From assembly GCA_030753015.1 (NCBI GenBank), contig JASMDC010000064.1:1-12047 (forward strand): a stretch of 12,047 bases of DNA, given 5' to 3'. Shown one piece after another: positions 3,660-11,313 of this stretch; position 1 is the first letter of the stretch, and each line of letters opens with the position of its first letter. A program made the translations under genes and the position numbers. Below the pieces are notes generated by a model, which ran no database searches, was not told where the DNA came from, and worked only from the letters and a program-made list of their open reading frames with translations. Source of the stretch: Candidatus Undinarchaeales archaeon (GTDB taxonomy: Archaea; SpSt-1190; JASMDC01).

Positions 3660-4250
3660 CTACTCCAGGACCTTATCGATCACATCGCCGGGGTAGTCAT
3701 GGCGGTTGAGCATCGCCCGGATGTCATTGTCGTCGTGACCTTGCGTACGCTGCTCGGCGACGTACCGCTTCACGCGGCTCATCTCGTCACCTTCATCAGC
3801 GACGTGTTGATCCGGCTCGTGGGCCATGAGCTTGAACTTGACAACGGCCAGCAATATGAGCGCGAACAGGCCTCCCATGAGCATGGGGTAGGAGGTGGCC
3901 CCCGTGGTGTCGGGGGGTGGTCCTGCGGGCTCGGGCACGTCCCCCACCTTGGAGCGGCACTTGCTCTTCCACGACCCGTCCTCGACCATGTCGCACACTG
4001 AGGCCCCGCGGGCAGGGTCCACCGAGGCGATCTCGGGGCCGACGGTAGCAAGGCACCAGTCGGTCCAGTCGACGTCGGTGAGCTCGTCGGTGCACACGGA
4101 TACAGCGGCCCTGGGATCGCTCTTGGCCATTACCTTCGCCTGCTTCACCCAGCAGGTGTTCTTGTCACCGGCATCATCGCAGGGGCCGGCCATGGCTAGG
4201 ACCACTAGCAGAGCGAGGGCGACAAGACAGCTACCGAGCGTGCGACGCAT
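3660..4250 (-). CDS. Single-pass membrane protein with tandem Cys repeats outside the cell
   Basis: I do not recognise a named family. The 196-residue product has a signal peptide (1-22, R-R then a Leu/Ala/Val core). Its extracellular region has six cysteines (24, 33, 53, 66, 86, 98) arranged as two similar units: C33...DPRAAVSVC53 and C66...DPARGASVC86, each with Cys, about 12 residues, Asp-Pro and Ser-Val-Cys. A Pro-rich linker (103-118) leads to one membrane helix (about 121-140). The cytoplasmic tail ends in a helical motif (about 160-196, with GHDDNDIRAML and YPGDVIDKVL) like short archaeal C-terminal motifs that recur on membrane proteins. The frame is open to an ATG at 4292, but the ATG at 4250 starts the signal peptide exactly and lies 28 bases after a TATA box, implying a leaderless mRNA. 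Export and topology are well supported; function is unknown. Confidence 0.8.
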   Translation of the reverse strand: MRRTLGSCLVALALLVVLAMAGPCDDAGDKNTCWVKQAKVMAKSDPRAAVSVCTDELTDVDWTDWCLATVGPEIASVDPARGASVCDMVEDGSWKSKCRSKVGDVPEPAGPPPDTTGATSYPMLMGGLFALILLAVVKFKLMAHEPDQHVADEGDEMSRVKRYVAEQRTQGHDDNDIRAMLNRHDYPGDVIDKVLE

Positions 4251-4270
4251 CACTCTACACAAGGCACCGA

Positions 4271-4285
4271 ACCTATATAAAACCA
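4271..4285 (-). promoter_or_regulatory. TATA box giving a leaderless mRNA for the Cys-repeat membrane protein
   Basis: The minus strand reads GGTTTTATATAGG, a strong archaeal TATA box centred near 4278. The usual 25-28 base distance puts the transcription start at the ATG at 4250, which supports that start over the ATG at 4292. The box lies in the 51-base gap after the GTPase gene, so the membrane protein gene can be transcribed on its own. Confidence 0.65.
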
Positions 4286-4301
4286 GAGGCAAGACCCGGA
4301 T

Positions 4302-5090
4302 TCAATCCTCGTCCTCGCCGGTGATGACCTTGGCGATGTTGCCACGGTACCAGTCGCGGACCAGGATCTTGGCCATCTCGTCCACATCCGGTTCCCCGCC
4401 CCGGAGCAGTCGTCCACGGGAACAGGCGATCGCCTCGAGCACCTCGTGAGTGGGCAGGGACGGATCACCGCCGTAATACTCGATGACCGCAGGATGTTCA
4501 GCGGTGAGGTGCTCGATGAGCTTCCAGGCAACAGGGACCGGATCGCGGAGCTTGTCGATGTCCCATGCTCCAAGGAGAGCGAGGTCGACGGCCGACTCGT
4601 CCCTCGGGATGACCCCCGGGGTATCAAGGAGGAGGATGTTCTCGTCCATCCTGATCCACTGCTCGCCCTTTGTGAACCCGGGCTCGGGGGACGTCCGTGC
4701 CTTACCCCGGCGTGTGAGCATGTTGATGATGCTCGACTTGCCGACGTTGGGATAGCCGAACACCGCCACACGGATGTCGGACCCTGCTTTGGGCCGCAGC
4801 TGGGCCTTCAACCGGTTCCTGCCCTTTCCGGATTTGGCGGATACAAGAACGCAGGGAAGATCGGTCGCCAGACGGCGCTGGTCCGCCTGGGCATCGGCTG
4901 CGTCCACGAGATCGGTCTTGTTCACAACAAGAATGATGCTCTTGTGGAGCATGCGGGCGAAGCCCTCGAGCTTCTTGCACCGTGTCGTGTCAGGGGCACG
5001 GGCGTCGAGCACCTCGAGCACGACAGAGGACGATCTGATGACCCGTTTGACCCTGTCCCAGGCCCCGAGCCGTCGCCGTCTTCGTGCCAT
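4302..5090 (-). CDS. Circularly permuted GTPase of the YlqF/RbgA/MTG1 group
   Basis: This 262-residue protein has the G motifs in permuted order, the hallmark of the YlqF/RbgA/YawG group: G4 N-K-T-D (57-60), G5 S-A-K (84-86), then G1 G-Y-P-N-V-G-K-S-S (112-120), a G2 Thr in P-G-F-T-K-G (137-142), and G3 D-T-P-G (156-159). Known members bind large-subunit ribosome precursors and help late assembly, so a cytoplasmic ribosome-assembly GTPase is the likely role. The basic start (MARRRRR) fits RNA or ribosome contact. The C-terminal helical domain (about 190-262) is short, as in archaeal relatives. The ATG at 5090 is the only credible start. It is divergent from mtrA with a 37-base gap. The family call is firm; the exact ribosomal step is inferred. 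Confidence 0.92.
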   Translation of the reverse strand: MARRRRRLGAWDRVKRVIRSSSVVLEVLDARAPDTTRCKKLEGFARMLHKSIILVVNKTDLVDAADAQADQRRLATDLPCVLVSAKSGKGRNRLKAQLRPKAGSDIRVAVFGYPNVGKSSIINMLTRRGKARTSPEPGFTKGEQWIRMDENILLLDTPGVIPRDESAVDLALLGAWDIDKLRDPVPVAWKLIEHLTAEHPAVIEYYGGDPSLPTHEVLEAIACSRGRLLRGGEPDVDEMAKILVRDWYRGNIAKVITGEDED

Positions 5091-5096
5091 GTAAAG

Positions 5097-5108
5097 GCTT
5101 TTAAAAGG
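5097..5108. promoter_or_regulatory. Palindromic TATA box between the GTPase gene and the mtrA operon
   Basis: GCTTTTAAAAGG contains a perfect CTTTTAAAAG palindrome centred at 5102.5. Read on the plus strand, its centre is 25-26 bases before the GTG at 5128, the right distance for a leaderless mtrA mRNA. Read on the minus strand it lies only 12 bases before the GTPase ATG, too close for a standard leaderless start, so its role there is unclear. A second AT-rich element, GAAAGGTTTTT at 5110-5120 on the plus strand, resembles the BRE/TATA boxes of the genes starting at 11313 and 3528. It would instead favour a start at the GTG at 5143. Confidence 0.5.
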
Positions 5109-5127
5109 CGAAAGGTTTTTGACGTTT

Positions 5128-5775
5128 GTGGCGTGGCCGCGCGTGAAAGGTGACTACCTCCGGGTCCGGGAGGACAGTAGAGTGGTGGTAATCACACTTG
5201 GTACCGACAAGGAGCGCTTCACTGATATCGAGGCCCTCCTCGTGGGCTCCTGCAAGACCGAGAACCTCGGCCTGGAGCGCATCATCGTCAACGTAATCGC
5301 CAATCCCGCCATCCGTTTCATGGTGGTGACCGGGAGCGAGGTCGTGGGCCATCGTTCGGGCAACGCCCTGGTGTGCCTTCATCGGGAGGGCATTGACGAC
5401 GAAGGGGTCATTAAGGACGCTGTCGGTGCGGTCCCGCGCATCGAGAACATCGCCGCCGAGGCCGTGGAGCGCTTCCGCCAGCAGGTGGAGCTGGTCGACA
5501 TGGTGGGTATCGATGATCTCGACCTCGTTGCACGCACGGTCCGCGAGCTCGACGACCAGTTGACCAAGGACTACCCTGGCGGCCCCATGGAGGTCGAGGC
5601 CCGGCGACGGATCGTAGCACCGCTCCCCACCGGATCCGCTCACGGGGACGTGTGGTTGTCGGTCGATCCCGCAATCGAGGTGGATCCCTTCACCGGGTGT
5701 GTCTACCTATCCCATCCAATCCATGTCGGGGAGGGCGTGCGCATCGACGCAGAACGGGGGTTAGTATCATGTTGA
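5128..5775 (+). CDS. mtrA: MtrA-type corrinoid protein lacking the membrane anchor
   Basis: This is a homologue of subunit A of tetrahydromethanopterin S-methyltransferase, the corrinoid subunit that shuttles a methyl group on cobalt. Diagnostic blocks are W-P-x-V-x-G-D-Y (3-10), G-S-C-K-T-E-N-L-G (40-48), N-P-A-I-R-F (59-64), G-S-E-V-x-G-H (69-75) and E-A-V-E-R-F-R-x-Q-V-E-x-V-D (111-124). By alignment H75 matches the conserved His that ligates cobalt in methanogen MtrA. The product is 215 residues. Canonical MtrA is about 240 with a C-terminal membrane helix; here residues 165-215 are polar and no helix is present, so it should be soluble. I chose the GTG at 5128 because it keeps the W-P block and fits the TATA spacing; TTG 5119 and GTG 5143 are alternatives. 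It overlaps mtrH by 7 bases. Confidence 0.9.
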   Translation: MAWPRVKGDYLRVREDSRVVVITLGTDKERFTDIEALLVGSCKTENLGLERIIVNVIANPAIRFMVVTGSEVVGHRSGNALVCLHREGIDDEGVIKDAVGAVPRIENIAAEAVERFRQQVELVDMVGIDDLDLVARTVRELDDQLTKDYPGGPMEVEARRRIVAPLPTGSAHGDVWLSVDPAIEVDPFTGCVYLSHPIHVGEGVRIDAERGLVSC

Positions 5776-6695
5776 GGTTCCAGACCGAACAGCGGACAAT
5801 CGAGGTTGCCGGTGCGACCATCGGCGGCCAACCGGGGGAGTTCCCAACAGCGCTGGCAGCGACCATCTTCTACGAGGGTCACGACATAGTCCGTGACATG
5901 AAGAAGGGCGAATTCGATAAGAAGCGTGCCAAGGAGCTGGTAGCAGCCCACGAGGCGGCTGCGGAGGAGACGGGCAATCCGGCCCTCCTTCACGTGTTCG
6001 CAGCCTACCCCGAGGCCATGGAGACCTATCTCAACTTCGCTGCTGACGCCACCACGGGACCGCTGCTGGTGGACAGTCCGTCGCTCGACGTGCGGCTCGC
6101 CGGCGTGCGCTGGGCGCTCGAGGCCGGCGCCATCGATCGCATCGTCTATAATTCGCTCAACCTGACGATCACCGACGAGGAGATAGAGGCGTTGCGTGCG
6201 TCGGGTGTGAGCTGTGCCATCGTGCTCGCCTTCAATCCCAAGGACTCCGGTCTGAACGGGCGGCTCAAGCTGCTGGAGGACGGGGCCGATGTAACGGACG
6301 CTGGACTGCTGGACCTGGCGTCGGCCGCAGGCATCACAAAAGTGCTCGTGGACCCGGCGGTGACACCCATCGGCAACGGCGCCGGTGTGGCGGTGCGCAC
6401 TGCCCTGGCCGCCAAGGCCAAGTGGGGGCATCCTGTAGGCTCGGGCATCCACAACGCGCCCGCCTCGCTCCCCTGGCTCAGCGACAAGGACCGGAAGGTA
6501 AAAGACTGCGTCGATGTCGCCACGAACGTGCTCCAGGTGGCCATGTGCGCCGATTACCTGCTCTACGGCCCCATCGAGCACGCCCCGTACGTTTTCCCGG
6601 CAGTGGCCGTGGCGGATGCCATCGTGGCCGACGCAGCCCAGGAGCTTGGCACGGACATCTCCAAGAACCGGACCTTTACGGAACTGGTCGGGTAG
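5769..6695 (+). CDS. mtrH: MtrH-type methyl-tetrahydropterin:corrinoid methyltransferase
   Basis: This is a homologue of subunit H of the Mtr complex, the peripheral subunit that moves the methyl group of methyl-tetrahydromethanopterin onto the corrinoid of MtrA. It has 308 residues, the family length. Family blocks seen are I-G-G-Q-P-G-E-F-P-T-A-L (18-29) with T-I-F-Y just after, a V-D-S strand near residue 105, the I-x-Y-N-S-L-N segment near 125, D-P-A-V-T-P-I-G-N-G-A-G (195-206) and G-S-G-I-H-N (224-229), all typical of this pterin-binding TIM barrel. No large deletion is visible, so the enzyme is probably active. The ATG at 5769 overlaps the mtrA stop (ATGTTGA), with a GGGGG site upstream, suggesting translational coupling and a fixed A:H ratio. 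The pterin used (H4MPT or tetrahydrofolate) cannot be told from sequence alone. Confidence 0.93.
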   Translation: MLRFQTEQRTIEVAGATIGGQPGEFPTALAATIFYEGHDIVRDMKKGEFDKKRAKELVAAHEAAAEETGNPALLHVFAAYPEAMETYLNFAADATTGPLLVDSPSLDVRLAGVRWALEAGAIDRIVYNSLNLTITDEEIEALRASGVSCAIVLAFNPKDSGLNGRLKLLEDGADVTDAGLLDLASAAGITKVLVDPAVTPIGNGAGVAVRTALAAKAKWGHPVGSGIHNAPASLPWLSDKDRKVKDCVDVATNVLQVAMCADYLLYGPIEHAPYVFPAVAVADAIVADAAQELGTDISKNRTFTELVG

Positions 6696-6699
6696 CCTC

Positions 6700-7896
6700 A
6701 TGATCCCCTCCTCCAAGCCCCTGCGTGTGCTTTCGGTGGAGCTGGGGAACACAACGACCAAGTGCATCCTCGTCGAGACCGACCTTGACGACGGCACTTC
6801 CCGCATAGCGGCCCGACACGTGGACCGGACCCGGTCCATTGCGGCCAAGGACGGCTTCGCCCGGACCGTGTGGGGGTACGCTATCACCGAAGCGGGCGTC
6901 AAGGACATCGTACGCCGCTCGATCAACACAACGCTCCTACAGTCCCGACTCTCGGCCCGTGACCTGGACTTCGTGGTGCGGTCCACGGGAGTGACCGCTG
7001 GGTTCTCATCGCCCGAGGATGTGGGCACCCTCATCAAGGCCCTTGCCGACGCATGCCTGGCCGCAGGTGTCGAACCGCGCCAGATGATCGCGCCGCTCGC
7101 TGCTGACAACCTAGCACCCAGGCTCCGCGCCCATTCAATCATCGACCGTTCGACGTTCACCGGATCGGTGGCAGGCACGCTCCCACCGGGTGAGCCCGTG
7201 GCCGCCAACGAGATGGAGGGAGAGCTGGTGACCGCGGGGCTCAAGGACCATGCCCGGGCGAGCGGATGTCCATTCCGCAATCCCTACCTTGCCCTGGACT
7301 TCGGCACCACTCTCGCTGGTCGCCTCATCGACGACGAGCGCAGGACCGTGGCCACCTTCGCAGGCCTTGCCGGTGGCATCCTGGACGCTGTGGCACAGGG
7401 GTGCGGATTCACATCGGCGATGGATGTCCCGGTACGGCCGGGACGGACGGACCGGCACTCGGAAGGGATCATGGAGCTGGTGGAGATAGGCCCCGTGCGC
7501 ACGGGTGACCGCGTGGGGACCGTCCCCGTCGATCCTGTGGCCGCCTCGCGCGCAGGGGTAACGGTCATCGGATGCAGCGCCGACCTGGACGCGATCACGT
7601 CCGCATCCCGTGACGTGGCTCCCGGCCATCTCTCATGCGTGCTCGACGGACTGGCGGTGGGATTGTTCGACCGGTTGCTCGCTTCTGTGGAGGAGGCGGG
7701 GCTGGACGTGCCCGACAGTGTCGGCATCACGGGCCGTGGCGCGACCACTGGCGCCAAACCTGAACTCTTACGCGAGCGCGTCCCGGCCATCACCATCGTG
7801 GACGACGGCCTGGCACGTGGAGCGGCAGTGATGGCGATGTGCATGCTCCGATTATGTCGACCCCATGGACGGATGGGCGGCTGCCCACTGGCATGA
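6700..7896 (+). CDS. Methanogenesis marker protein 14-like, ASKHA-fold ATPase-like protein
   Basis: The 398-residue protein has two nucleotide-binding halves of the actin/sugar-kinase/Hsp70 type. V-E-L-G-N-T-T-T-K (13-21) is a phosphate-1 loop and A-L-D-F-G-T-T-L-A-G (198-207) is a second Gly-Thr-Thr loop. G-I-T-G-R-G-A (342-348) and V-D-D-G-L-A-R-G-A-A (367-376) match the adenosine side. Overall it resembles putative methanogenesis marker protein 14, whose function is not established. Other ASKHA proteins (RACo/RamA-type) use ATP to drive reductive activation of oxidised corrinoids, so a maintenance role for the MtrA cobalt is a reasonable inference. No N-terminal 2Fe-2S or clustered Cys motif is visible, unlike those activators. 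The ATG at 6700 is 4 bases after the mtrH stop; an upstream in-frame ATG lies inside mtrH and is rejected. The last 12 residues look unstructured. Confidence 0.8.
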   Translation: MIPSSKPLRVLSVELGNTTTKCILVETDLDDGTSRIAARHVDRTRSIAAKDGFARTVWGYAITEAGVKDIVRRSINTTLLQSRLSARDLDFVVRSTGVTAGFSSPEDVGTLIKALADACLAAGVEPRQMIAPLAADNLAPRLRAHSIIDRSTFTGSVAGTLPPGEPVAANEMEGELVTAGLKDHARASGCPFRNPYLALDFGTTLAGRLIDDERRTVATFAGLAGGILDAVAQGCGFTSAMDVPVRPGRTDRHSEGIMELVEIGPVRTGDRVGTVPVDPVAASRAGVTVIGCSADLDAITSASRDVAPGHLSCVLDGLAVGLFDRLLASVEEAGLDVPDSVGITGRGATTGAKPELLRERVPAITIVDDGLARGAAVMAMCMLRLCRPHGRMGGCPLA

Positions 7897-7899
7897 TAC

Positions 7900-8661
7900 T
7901 TACTCCTCGGGAGGTGAGCCGGGCGTGGACATTCCCGTCCCTTCTCCACTCGGATGAGGATCCTGCGGGTTCATATGGTATAGGACGGCGCCGTACGGAT
8001 CATGAGGGTTCCGGTCTATCTTTTCGAAATGGTGTAGCACGGCGCCGTACGGATCATGCCCCTTCCTGCTCTCTCCCTCGAATGGTACTCCAGAGATAAG
8101 CCCTCTCAGATCCAGGTATTCCTTCCGGGAGATCTCTCCCTTGGCAAGTCGTGTGGTCAGGATCTCAAGGGGATCCTCCCTCGAAACTGTGTTCAGATTG
8201 GTATAGTAACGTTGGAACCCGATGTGACCAAGCTTGAGTATCAATCCCCAGACCAGGATCAACAGCAACGCTATACCCAGAATCATGATGAGAGTAGAGA
8301 TGGTGGTAACGATGGTCTTCCATTGTTCAACACTCAATGGGCCGAGCTGTTGAGCGTCTATCATCGCCCTTCCTTGCTCTGAGCAGTAGAACCATTCCCC
8401 CATATTGTAATGGGTCTCCCGTAGCTTCTTGCTCCCCTCGCCACCCAAGAGCTCCGCTGACGTATTGTGTTCCTCATCGGGGTAGATCATCTCATGATAG
8501 TAGTGACCGATGCTTTCCAGCTCTTCCCTGGTGAGCTCCTCGCAGATGCGTCCTTCCTCGATGAGGCGCTCTGCCTCGGCGAACTCTTCAGAGTCGGCCA
8601 TGGCCATGGTGGAGATGGCGATTATGATGAGTAGGGAAATGAGTCTTGTTTCAGGATTCAT
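7900..8661 (-). CDS. Membrane protein with SHOCT domain and DPYGAV repeats
   Basis: The 253-residue product has a signal peptide (1-22) and an acidic ectodomain (23-115) with two cysteines, C40 and C93, in an I-C-E-E-L-T and W-F-Y-C setting. A membrane helix (about 118-144) follows, and then a SHOCT domain (162-190: D-P-L-E-I-L...G-E-I-S-x-x-E-Y-L). After SHOCT come two copies of a decapeptide, DPYGAVLHHF (203-212) and DPYGAVLYHM (221-230), each preceded by His, then a Pro-rich tail. SHOCT domains are small helical modules often found on envelope proteins and thought to mediate oligomerisation. The specific function is unknown. The ATG at 8661 begins the signal peptide and has GGAG about 11 bases upstream; an in-frame ATG at 8730 only adds unconserved residues. 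By eye, its DNA is less GC-rich than that of the neighbours. It ends 3 bases from the convergent mmp14-like gene. Confidence 0.8.
   Translation of the reverse strand: MNPETRLISLLIIIAISTMAMADSEEFAEAERLIEEGRICEELTREELESIGHYYHEMIYPDEEHNTSAELLGGEGSKKLRETHYNMGEWFYCSEQGRAMIDAQQLGPLSVEQWKTIVTTISTLIMILGIALLLILVWGLILKLGHIGFQRYYTNLNTVSREDPLEILTTRLAKGEISRKEYLDLRGLISGVPFEGESRKGHDPYGAVLHHFEKIDRNPHDPYGAVLYHMNPQDPHPSGEGTGMSTPGSPPEE
7975..8004. repeat. Direct repeat copy 1 (30 bases, 54-base period)
   Basis: It matches 8029-8058 at 28 of 30 positions and includes the shared core CGGCGCCGTACGGATCATG. On the minus strand it encodes the second DPYGAVL-type decapeptide of the SHOCT protein. The offset of 54 bases is 18 codons, so the duplication keeps the frame. 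Confidence 0.85.
8029..8058. repeat. Direct repeat copy 2 (30 bases, 54-base period)
   Basis: This is the partner of 7975-8004, differing at two positions. On the minus strand it encodes the first DPYGAVL-type decapeptide. The near-identity at DNA level, including silent positions, points to a recent in-frame duplication. Confidence 0.85.
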
Positions 8662-8991
8662 CTGTAAACAGCTCCGGGTGTGGTTGTGGGCTTGAAGGGA
8701 CGTTGCGTCCCTCGATGACCGGGATATCAAAAGGAAATAACAATGGTTATACGCCAGACATTATATGGTTTTTCTTTGGGGGCGACAATCCCCACGACGA
8801 TGATGCGATATACTCGACAGAGCAGAACCGCATCGAAGCGTCCCAGAAGCGTTGGTGCGTGAGGACGGATCGTCCGGGCCATGATGGACCTGGAGTGTTA
8901 TATCATCTGCCGCCAGCATAGCGTTACGGTGTGCATCCTCTCCTAATGCCTATGCCGTGGTCAATACCAGTGATCTTGCACGACGACTAGA
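8662..8991. other. 330-base stretch without a supported gene
   Basis: This gap lies upstream of the SHOCT gene and downstream of the DHH gene. It holds a perfect 6-bp hairpin, GGGACG-TTG-CGTCCC, at 8697-8711, and a possible promoter for the SHOCT gene, minus-strand AACCATATAATG near 8768-8779. That box would place transcription start near 8745 and put the hairpin in the leader. Both calls are weak. No tRNA, snoRNA box pair or convincing coding frame was seen. Confidence 0.45.
8768..8785 (-). promoter_or_regulatory. Possible BRE/TATA box for the SHOCT membrane protein
   Basis: The minus strand reads GAAAAACCATATAATG, an A-rich BRE-like stretch followed by a TATA-like core. It would give a leader of about 85 bases. 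This is a pattern match only. Confidence 0.3.
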
Positions 8992-11313
8992 CTAGGCCTC
9001 GACGGGTGGTGCGTCACCGGGCGCTTCCAGCGCTTCGAGCTGGTAGGAGGCGAAGAGCGGACCGTTGTAGGCGTCCTTCACGGCCGACCGGTAGGAGTCG
9101 CGGACCTCCCGCATCATGACCGCTACGTCCTGAGTGAGCTGCTTATCATCGGTCTGTAGCTCGTCGAGGTTGACGCGACAGTAGCCCTCGGAGAGCTGGG
9201 CGTCCAGTGTGTACTTGTTCTGGCCTGGGGACACGAGTTTCGTCGACGTGCCGTCCCGCTCTACCTTGTAGCCCTTTGTCTCGAGAGCGTTGTAGACGCC
9301 CTGCTCGATGGTCGCCTCCAAACCGGCCCTACCGTCCTCGCCGATCTTCTCAGCCCAGCCGGTGTAGTCGGCCTTGGCGTCGAACTGACCCTTGGCGCTC
9401 ACGATGACGGGATCACGGAACGTGTTGTAGGCGGTGAAGTGGGAGTCCACGTGCTCATCGTCCCTGGTGGCAAGGAGCTGGTACATGCCCTTCTTGGCCC
9501 CCAGCTGCGTGCCGTTGGATGTTTCGAGAGCGTATGCGACGTTGCCCTTGGTCAGGGTCTGGCTCCAGGCACCGGACGTCTGGAAGAAGCTGGGCATCCT
9601 CGGATCGAACTCCGTGTCCTTGAGGAGCGCCTCCTCGTGCTCGGGGAGGAGCTTGTAGCCGTTGAGGATGTAGTCCTCCAGCTGTTCGCCGATGGTCTTG
9701 TTCAGCACGGTCAGGAAGTCCTTCCAACCCGCCCGAGGTATGCTGGCGCCCGCAGCGACGGCGTGGCCGCCACCGATGCCGCCCACGGACTCGGCAGCCG
9801 TGTTCATGGCCTCGCCGATGTCCAGGCCGGCGCCGGTGAGGTAGTTGAACGAGCGTCCGGAGAACTTGAAGAACGACTCCTCGTCGGTGTCGCCCTTGAC
9901 ATAGGTATAGGCGATGATGGGGAGCTTGCGGAAAGCTTCCTCCTTGAAGTTCGCGGTCCCCAGGGCCATGGAGGCCATGACGCCCATGGTGGACTGATCA
10001 GCGTCCTTGTAGTAGAAGGTCGAGGAGATGTAGTGGTTCTCGCCATCCTTGAGCTCGATCTCGTCCTTGTGGAAGGCGTCGAACTTGATCTTGCCGAAGG
10101 TCTTCACCAGCCCGTCCCGAAGGAGCAACCGGTAGCGGTGCCATACCTCGTCGGCCTTCTCCAGGACCTCACCGCGCTCGCCCAGGAGCACCTTCTTGGC
10201 CAGCTCGCGGTTGGCCTCCTTCTCCTCGGGCGTGGCGCCGAACTTGGTGCAGGCGGTGAGCATGGAGCCGAACTCGCTCAGGGTACCGATCTCGGTATCC
10301 CCGAACTCGCCGAGCACATACGAGCGCTCGAAGAGCTGTGACTGCTGGTACTTCTGGAATGCCTCCGAAGCACCGGACTGTTCGATGAGCTCAGAGATAG
10401 AGCCGAGCACCAGATCACGCTCGCCCTTGCTCATACGCGCGGGTGTGTAGGTGGTATGGAGCCCAAGCTCCTTGGCGAACTCACGGGCACCCTTGTCGTC
10501 TCCGCTGATGCCCTCGAGGACGGGTCGGTCGCTGCCTGCCAGGGATGTGACGATGTTACGGCGGTGGTAGCCGTAGAAAGGCCAGGAGATGGGCGTCACG
10601 AGTTGCTCATCGGTGGCCTTCTTGAACACAGTGGCGTTCACCTCGCCGTTGGGGCTGGTGCCGTCCACACGGGCACCGATCATGGCCGCAGATCCCAGTA
10701 CGTTCATCACCGGCTCGTTCGGGTTGTGGAACTCGATGTTGCGGCCCTCGAGGTCCTTCTTGTACGCATTCTGCTTGCGGGCGGGGAGCGCGTCGTACAC
10801 CGACTCAGCAAGGGAGTAGGCGATGGTCGCTCCGCTGCAGGACTCGCCGCCGTCCATACCGAAGTTCGCGGGGTTCAGCTCCTTGAAGGTGCTGTCGGGC
10901 CCCATGGGCGGGTGATGGTCGAAGATGTACACGTCCGCGCCGCATTTGTCGATCTCAGCTTCGTCCAGGAGCCGCTTGTATCCTGAACCGATGTCTGTGA
11001 AGATTATCAAGTCGGGATTGTAATCGTCGATGGTCTCGCTCAGCTGGGATATCTCGGTATTGCTGAGCTGCGGGACGCCCAGCGTCTCCACCTCGAGGCC
11101 CAGCATGGTACCTATCTCTTCTGCGATGACACCGGATGTCCGGCCGTCCACGTCCGACGAGTGGTGCACGACGAGCAGGCGCTCCGAGGTCCGGGCCTGG
11201 GATACGATGTCCCTCCCCAGCTCCTCGGCCTCCGCAAGGAAGGCCTGCGCTTTCTCGTTTTGGGTGTAATCACGTAATTTATGGCGATCCACCCCATCGG
11301 CACCTAGGACCAT
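8992..11313 (-). CDS. Large DHH/DHHA1-family phosphoesterase (RecJ-like)
   Basis: The 773-residue protein carries the DHH phosphoesterase signature. Motif I is H-H-S-S-D-V-D-G (50-57), motif II is F-T-D-I-G-S-G (105-111) and motif III is D-H-H-P-P-M-G (132-138), giving the metal ligands D54, D56, D107, D132, H133 and H134. A DHHA1 substrate-binding signature, G-I-G-G-G-H-A-V-A-A-G, lies near residues 512-522. Family members are Mn-dependent nucleases (RecJ, archaeal GAN) or oligonucleotide phosphatases acting in the cytoplasm. A single-strand DNA or RNA exonuclease is likely, but the substrate cannot be fixed. The protein is much longer than typical archaeal RecJ-like proteins of about 450-500 residues. 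It has a long insert between the DHH and DHHA1 parts and about 240 residues after the GGGH motif that I cannot assign. The ATG at 11313 lies 29 bases after a TATA box. Confidence 0.88.
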   Translation of the reverse strand: MVLGADGVDRHKLRDYTQNEKAQAFLAEAEELGRDIVSQARTSERLLVVHHSSDVDGRTSGVIAEEIGTMLGLEVETLGVPQLSNTEISQLSETIDDYNPDLIIFTDIGSGYKRLLDEAEIDKCGADVYIFDHHPPMGPDSTFKELNPANFGMDGGESCSGATIAYSLAESVYDALPARKQNAYKKDLEGRNIEFHNPNEPVMNVLGSAAMIGARVDGTSPNGEVNATVFKKATDEQLVTPISWPFYGYHRRNIVTSLAGSDRPVLEGISGDDKGAREFAKELGLHTTYTPARMSKGERDLVLGSISELIEQSGASEAFQKYQQSQLFERSYVLGEFGDTEIGTLSEFGSMLTACTKFGATPEEKEANRELAKKVLLGERGEVLEKADEVWHRYRLLLRDGLVKTFGKIKFDAFHKDEIELKDGENHYISSTFYYKDADQSTMGVMASMALGTANFKEEAFRKLPIIAYTYVKGDTDEESFFKFSGRSFNYLTGAGLDIGEAMNTAAESVGGIGGGHAVAAGASIPRAGWKDFLTVLNKTIGEQLEDYILNGYKLLPEHEEALLKDTEFDPRMPSFFQTSGAWSQTLTKGNVAYALETSNGTQLGAKKGMYQLLATRDDEHVDSHFTAYNTFRDPVIVSAKGQFDAKADYTGWAEKIGEDGRAGLEATIEQGVYNALETKGYKVERDGTSTKLVSPGQNKYTLDAQLSEGYCRVNLDELQTDDKQLTQDVAVMMREVRDSYRSAVKDAYNGPLFASYQLEALEAPGDAPPVEA

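Follow-up and report, generated by a model that had tools for sequence, protein, structure and literature searches.

A soluble mtrA-mtrH-marker 14 operon in an archaeon without detectable McrA or MtrE, and marker 14 as a candidate for keeping the Mtr corrinoid active

What do mtrA and mtrH encode when the other mtr genes are missing, and why would a gene for methanogenesis marker 14 accompany them? The question is raised by a stretch of archaeal DNA of 12,047 nucleotides (hereafter the window), in which these three genes lie together. A first reading made without database searches (the sequence-only reading) had proposed an under-described, soluble methyl-transfer module without the pump and coenzyme M-side subunits of Mtr, whose third protein, of the ASKHA fold, keeps the cobalt active. 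To our knowledge, marker 14 has long been known only as a methanogen marker. The features of the locus are the following:

4302-5090, minus strand: YlqF-type GTPase gene, flanking and outside the module (TIGR03596, 138 bits, under its cut-off)
5099-5106, plus strand: TATA-box-like TTTTAAAA, 22-29 bases 5' of the mtrA GTG
5128-5775, plus strand: mtrA, GTG start, soluble corrinoid protein of 215 aa (PF04208, 6e-48)
5769-6695, plus strand: mtrH, methyl-tetrahydropterin:cob(I)amide methyltransferase subunit (PF02007, 1e-102)
6700-7896, plus strand: methanogenesis marker 14 (DUF2114), ATG at 6700, 398 aa, predicted ASKHA fold (PF09887, 4e-101)
7900-8730, minus strand: flanking gene outside the module, without a Pfam or NCBIfam match

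The open reading frames and family matches bear out the three-gene arrangement. All three genes are co-directional; mtrA, for which an alternative in-frame start (TTG) lies at 5119, overlaps mtrH by 7 bases, and mtrH is separated from the marker 14 gene by 4 bases. The sequence TTTTAAAA has its sole match in the window at this position, with 0.01 expected; its location would fit an archaeal promoter, possibly that of a leaderless mtrA transcript. Since both flanking genes are on the opposite strand, no further subunits have been lost to the contig edge. Indeed, neither the open reading frames nor the Pfam matches in the window revealed MtrB, MtrC, MtrD, MtrF or MtrG, and the three-gene operon itself contains no gene for a methyl acceptor. 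Elsewhere in the window, positions 8992-11313 encode a RecJ-family protein (773 aa) whose C-terminal part extends far past its DHH/DHHA1 domains. The protein encoded at 3660-4292 has no Pfam match; it is paralogous to that of locus L070 (5785-6414), both being of secreted type with a repeat-like end (..YV.E.R..GH.D..I...L....Y....I..VL).

MtrA passes the Pfam cut-off and scores 156 bits against the TIGR01111 equivalog, below the cut-off of 249. Aligned with described MtrA, it retains the Co-ligating His84, the Glu54/KTEN loop and the GA(I/V)P..EN segment; these cobalamin features (Co-binding His, KTEN loop, GAIP..EN) were described by Wagner 2016 (PMC4915002). The C-terminal membrane helix is absent from both the alignment and the structure model, in which residues 1-155 form a core at high pLDDT and the tail is disordered. 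According to the alignment, the MtrA proteins of a family of Mcr-free archaea (f40, see below) end in a comparable soluble tail. MtrH reaches 351 bits against TIGR01114, above the equivalog cut-off of 271, and has relatives in the PDB (9qtp, 8z9u and 6sj8). Conserved positions are retained at 29/35 in MtrA, at 59/68 in MtrH (residues invariant across methanogen and f40 MtrH) and at 43/47 in marker 14, which itself scores 336 bits against TIGR03285 (cut-off 274; reference residues invariant across 21 relatives). Because these positions are kept, the three genes are, judged by their sequences, intact and under constraint.

The window is the entire contig C78 of the archaeal genome bin G000 (3,845,586 bases; 98.9% complete, 5.0% contaminated), the sole member of its order among the genomes compared. 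In tetranucleotide composition, the contig shows correlations of 0.91-0.94 with C52, C11 and C84 of G000, compared with no more than 0.75 for loci from other genomes; moreover, C84, the Wood-Ljungdahl contig, carries a paralogue of one window gene. For these two reasons C78 very probably belongs to the bin. Genome-wide searches of G000 gave no match to McrA or to MtrE (PF04206). The alternative of a decayed copy beside mcr and a complete mtr operon elsewhere was thus checked by way of McrA and MtrE and not borne out, and the claimed lack of pump and CoM-side genes holds: no other mtr genes lie at the locus and MtrE is not found in the genome. Together with the MtrA without a membrane helix, this supports a soluble module.

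We then considered where a methyl group might come from. Contig C84 encodes Ftr, Mtd, CdhA, CdhC, CdhD and CdhE (confirmed by Pfam), as well as two formylmethanofuran dehydrogenase gene sets, CdhB and CooC (read from translations), and Mch and MTHFR are also encoded in G000. By gene content, the tetrahydromethanopterin (H4MPT) Wood-Ljungdahl pathway is complete, and because its genes are present CH3-H4MPT is very probably made. The pterin partner, previously given as a tetrahydropterin, can thus be sharpened: it is very probably a tetrahydromethanopterin-type carrier, since G000 contains ftr, mch, mtd and all the cdh genes. With its 3.85 Mb and this complete pathway, G000 contrasts with the other nine of the ten genomes of its phylum that were compared, which measure 0.6-1.1 Mb each.

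Next, the distribution of marker 14 was surveyed in 394 archaeal genomes; the counts include related genomes and are hence not independent. Marker 14 was found in 71 genomes, MtrE (above cut-off) in 61, McrA in 74 and MtrH in 123. Marker 14 is present in 61/61 genomes with MtrE (related ones included), whereas it occurs in 0/13 genomes that have McrA and lack MtrE, and for this reason we conclude that marker 14 tracks Mtr, not methane formation. Ten genomes with neither McrA nor MtrE also contain marker 14, accompanied by MtrH in nine of them; the remaining one, G157, has no MtrH match. As to position, in 5/10 methanogen families marker 14 and mtrH share a strand and are no more than 4 kb apart. 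The order MTHFR-mtrH'-mtrA-mtrH-marker 14 is found in all seven genomes of f40 (Mcr-free, 3 Mb), which are probably Thorarchaeia; in G104, marker 14 and an MtrA::MtrH fusion are divergently oriented. Co-occurrence and adjacency thus support the proposed tie between the third protein and a corrinoid methyltransferase.

A second mtrA-mtrH pair is present in G000, on contig C52, where it shares one operon with a gene for a MesA-like methionine synthase (264 bits against NF002119, above the cut-off of 258); a mes gene is present there and absent from the window operon:

6813-9366 of locus L004 (G000:C52), minus strand: mtrA-mtrH-MesA-like operon, divergent from a gcvH gene

The same type of operon occurs in G122 (L087) and G383 (L080), and the MtrH proteins of the three form one clade at 100/97. 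Among the sampled loci, the neighbourhoods of MtrH are of four main kinds. In the first, MtrA-MtrH is accompanied by marker 14; in the second, it is accompanied by a MesA-like methionine synthase and adjoined by neither RACo nor marker 14. The third, in related archaea, joins MtrH to RACo, an MtaC-type protein and a methyltransferase of UroD type, and in the fourth a thymidylate-synthase-like gene accompanies MtrA, MtrH or both. Examples of the last kind are L037 (3050-6057), L073 (3451-5732), L078 (2595-4203) and L089 (1810-3844), and a dCMP-deaminase-like gene adjoins MtrA and/or MtrH genes in L081 and L083; these six loci point to some link with thymidylate metabolism. Loci with an MtaC-type corrinoid partner have RACo as the adjoining ASKHA protein and those with a canonical MtrA have marker 14, the MesA kind being the exception. 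It is chiefly on this parallel that we base the proposal of marker 14 as an activator of MtrA. MtrH occurs without marker 14 in 51 Mcr-free genomes; these, and the C52 pair, imply that not every MtrH needs marker 14. In G157, two core-MetE genes lie divergent to marker 14 (L038, 6765-10173), and in a methanogen a Meth_synt_2 gene lies close downstream of marker 14 (L053, 9075-11969). We regard these two loci as a further hint at a connection with methionine.

The explanation that we favour, with moderate confidence, is that the operon encodes a soluble methyl-H4MPT:corrinoid methyltransferase, a pump-free form of the Mtr catalytic core. Marker 14 would maintain its corrinoid in the active state, and the methyl group would go to a thiol, homocysteine being the most plausible one. 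CH3-H4MPT would be supplied by Fwd, Ftr, Mch, Mtd and an MTHFR-type reductase. To judge from its family, its conserved residues and the pathway, MtrH would bind this substrate and methylate the cob(I)amide carried by MtrA. The membrane-free CH3-MtrA may then pass the methyl group on by way of a thiol-activating methyltransferase. Homocysteine, reached through a MesA-type core methionine synthase, would be the likeliest acceptor, because the C52 mtrA-mtrH pair shares its operon with a MesA-like gene and because MesA has been predicted to take the methyl group from MtrA (Price 2021, PMC7857596). Marker 14 would be a dedicated partner of MtrA/MtrH, presumably ATP-dependent, that returns cob(II)amide to cob(I), or remodels MtrA for that step, by analogy with the action of RACo and RamA on MtaC-type proteins. 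Several observations on gene content count against this explanation: the C52 mtrA-mtrH-mesA pair has no adjoining marker 14, MtrH is without marker 14 in the 51 Mcr-free genomes, G157 has marker 14 without an MtrH match, and the window operon includes no gene for a methyl acceptor.

How far does the fold of marker 14 speak for an activase? A sequence search of the PDB with marker 14 gave no match, so the fold was modelled. The AlphaFold model is confident (pLDDT 88, pTM 0.88) and matches several ASKHA families at Z 16-18 across 239-304 residues, in line with the fold that the sequence-only reading had assigned to the third gene. The top matches include AnmK (Z 17.9), 9gai, a benzoyl-CoA-reductase-type subunit (Z 17.3), and 4ehu, a 2-hydroxyacyl-CoA dehydratase activator (Z 16.7). 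The RACo structures 3zyy and 4c1n are among the Foldseek matches but missing from the VIA top list, and a special kinship between marker 14 and RACo is not claimed.

Such a fold would be compatible with an ATPase but does not pick out an activase among the functions that it allows. Marker 14 might instead be an ASKHA protein for assembly, cofactor loading or regulation of MtrA/MtrH, an alternative that we consider rather unlikely but that draws on two of the points against our explanation. The modelled fold matches kinases and FtsA as well as activators, with AnmK, CoaX, FtsA and TsaD standing beside the 2-hydroxyacyl-CoA dehydratase activators. In addition, PF09887 was the sole domain found by the Pfam search, which detected no 2Fe-2S, linker or RACo_C_ter domain, and without a RACo-like Fe-S domain the electron path is not evident. 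What favours an activating role over this alternative is that certain other MtrH clusters that lack marker 14 carry RACo, an ASKHA reactivase. The claim that the third protein keeps the cobalt active is strengthened by co-occurrence, adjacency and fold, but it is still an inference.

A flow in the opposite direction, with a methyl group from a methylated compound entering H4MPT for acetyl-CoA synthesis or oxidation, appears unlikely. MtrH-type enzymes such as MtgA (the 6sj8/MtgA family) do run that way with methylotrophic donors, and clusters of the RACo/MtaC/UroD type with MtrH occur in related archaea. However, B12-binding domains (PF02310) gave 30 matches in G000, and at the threshold used none of them is an MtaC-type corrinoid protein: the radical-SAM motif CxxxCxxC is present in 29 of the 30 open frames, and the remaining match, in an open frame of 156 aa, was taken as mutase-type. 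The methyl carriers that can be recognised in G000 are thus MtrA and the corrinoid protein of CODH/ACS. Moreover, the genes adjoining the operon include no demethylating methyltransferase.

It is more doubtful still that the operon is simply a vertical remnant of a full ancestral Mtr, transferring methyl groups to CoM or another thiol without energy coupling. This view has been published (PMC9635834), and several observations agree with it: several mtr operons of methanogens finish, on their 3' side, with the order mtrA..mtrH-marker 14, the MtrH score is above the equivalog cut-off, and the window MtrA groups with f40 MtrA at 86/83. On the other hand, the trees of MtrH, MtrA and marker 14 give no firm placement of the window genes and leave vertical inheritance versus transfer undecided, and among the nine other genomes of the phylum marker 14 is present in none and MtrH in only one. 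A remnant and the methyl-H4MPT:corrinoid methyltransferase that we favour are compatible with each other. Finally, a functionless copy, decayed or contaminant, is very improbable and was set aside as largely refuted: the bin is 5% contaminated and the contig short, but the composition of the contig, its paralogue on C84, the intact reading frames and the conserved positions described above all speak against it.

The methyltransferase with a thiol acceptor therefore remains our preferred explanation, and marker 14 is a good candidate for the protein that keeps the B12 cofactor of Mtr active, because it follows Mtr and not Mcr, adjoins mtrH, has a modelled ASKHA fold and occurs in a soluble operon outside methanogens. 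A bolder extension, which we put forward tentatively and think somewhat less likely to be right than wrong, is that in every methanogen the Mtr corrinoid is returned to activity by marker 14, as the ATP-dependent reactivase that has been missing, with this operon as the smallest natural set of MtrA, MtrH and activase. A paper of 2025 on the structure of Mtr describes the Mtr-activating RaCo enzymes as still uncharacterised (PMC12774963), and in the literature searched we found no paper that assigns a function to marker 14. With marker 14 and this operon, the question of how the oxidised Mtr corrinoid is restored has a specific candidate protein attached to it and a compact system in which to address it; if the reactivase reading is true, the activation step of Mtr becomes open to study without membranes.

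How does the operon compare with known systems? With the Mtr complex MtrEDCBAFGH it shares MtrA and MtrH with conserved cofactor residues, and the placement of marker 14 after mtrH is also seen in several methanogen families; it differs in that its genome has neither MtrE nor McrA, its locus no other mtr genes and its MtrA no membrane helix. MtgA, a methylcorrinoid:tetrahydrofolate methyltransferase, belongs to a fold family common to MtrH, but the window MtrH scores 216 against the MtgA family, short of the cut-off of 550, and pairs with MtrA instead of MtgC. The reactivases RACo and RamA resemble marker 14 in their ASKHA fold and their position beside a corrinoid methyltransferase, whereas marker 14 has neither a 2Fe-2S nor a linker domain and goes with MtrA, not with an MtaC-type protein. 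The C52 sister operon fits the MesA prediction and gives direct genomic support, from outside methanogens, for the predicted route from MtrA to methionine. MesA was found only in methanogens (Price 2021, PMC7857596), whereas here MesA-like proteins occur in Mcr-free genomes, and the window operon has no mes gene.

A further parallel is the MtrAH of Thorarchaeia and other Asgard archaea. MtrAH without other subunits, together with a marker (m26) 'tied to Mtr', was reported for Thorarchaeia by Adam 2022 (PMC9635834), and the literature already contains soluble MtrAH and a marker linked to Mtr from archaea without Mcr (PMC9635834; Valentin-Alvarado 2024, PMC11291895). The seven f40 genomes, with mtrH'-mtrA-mtrH-marker 14, probably represent this group. 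The likeness lies in a canonical MtrAH without the pump, in an Mcr-free archaeon with Wood-Ljungdahl genes, and to this extent the system is less under-described than had been claimed. However, the window operon consists of three genes, without a second mtrH or MTHFR, and belongs to another phylum, and G000 adds a separate mtrA-mtrH-mesA operon. What is new is this minimal form of the operon from a different phylum, the sister operon with its tie to methionine and a sharper link between marker 14 and Mtr.
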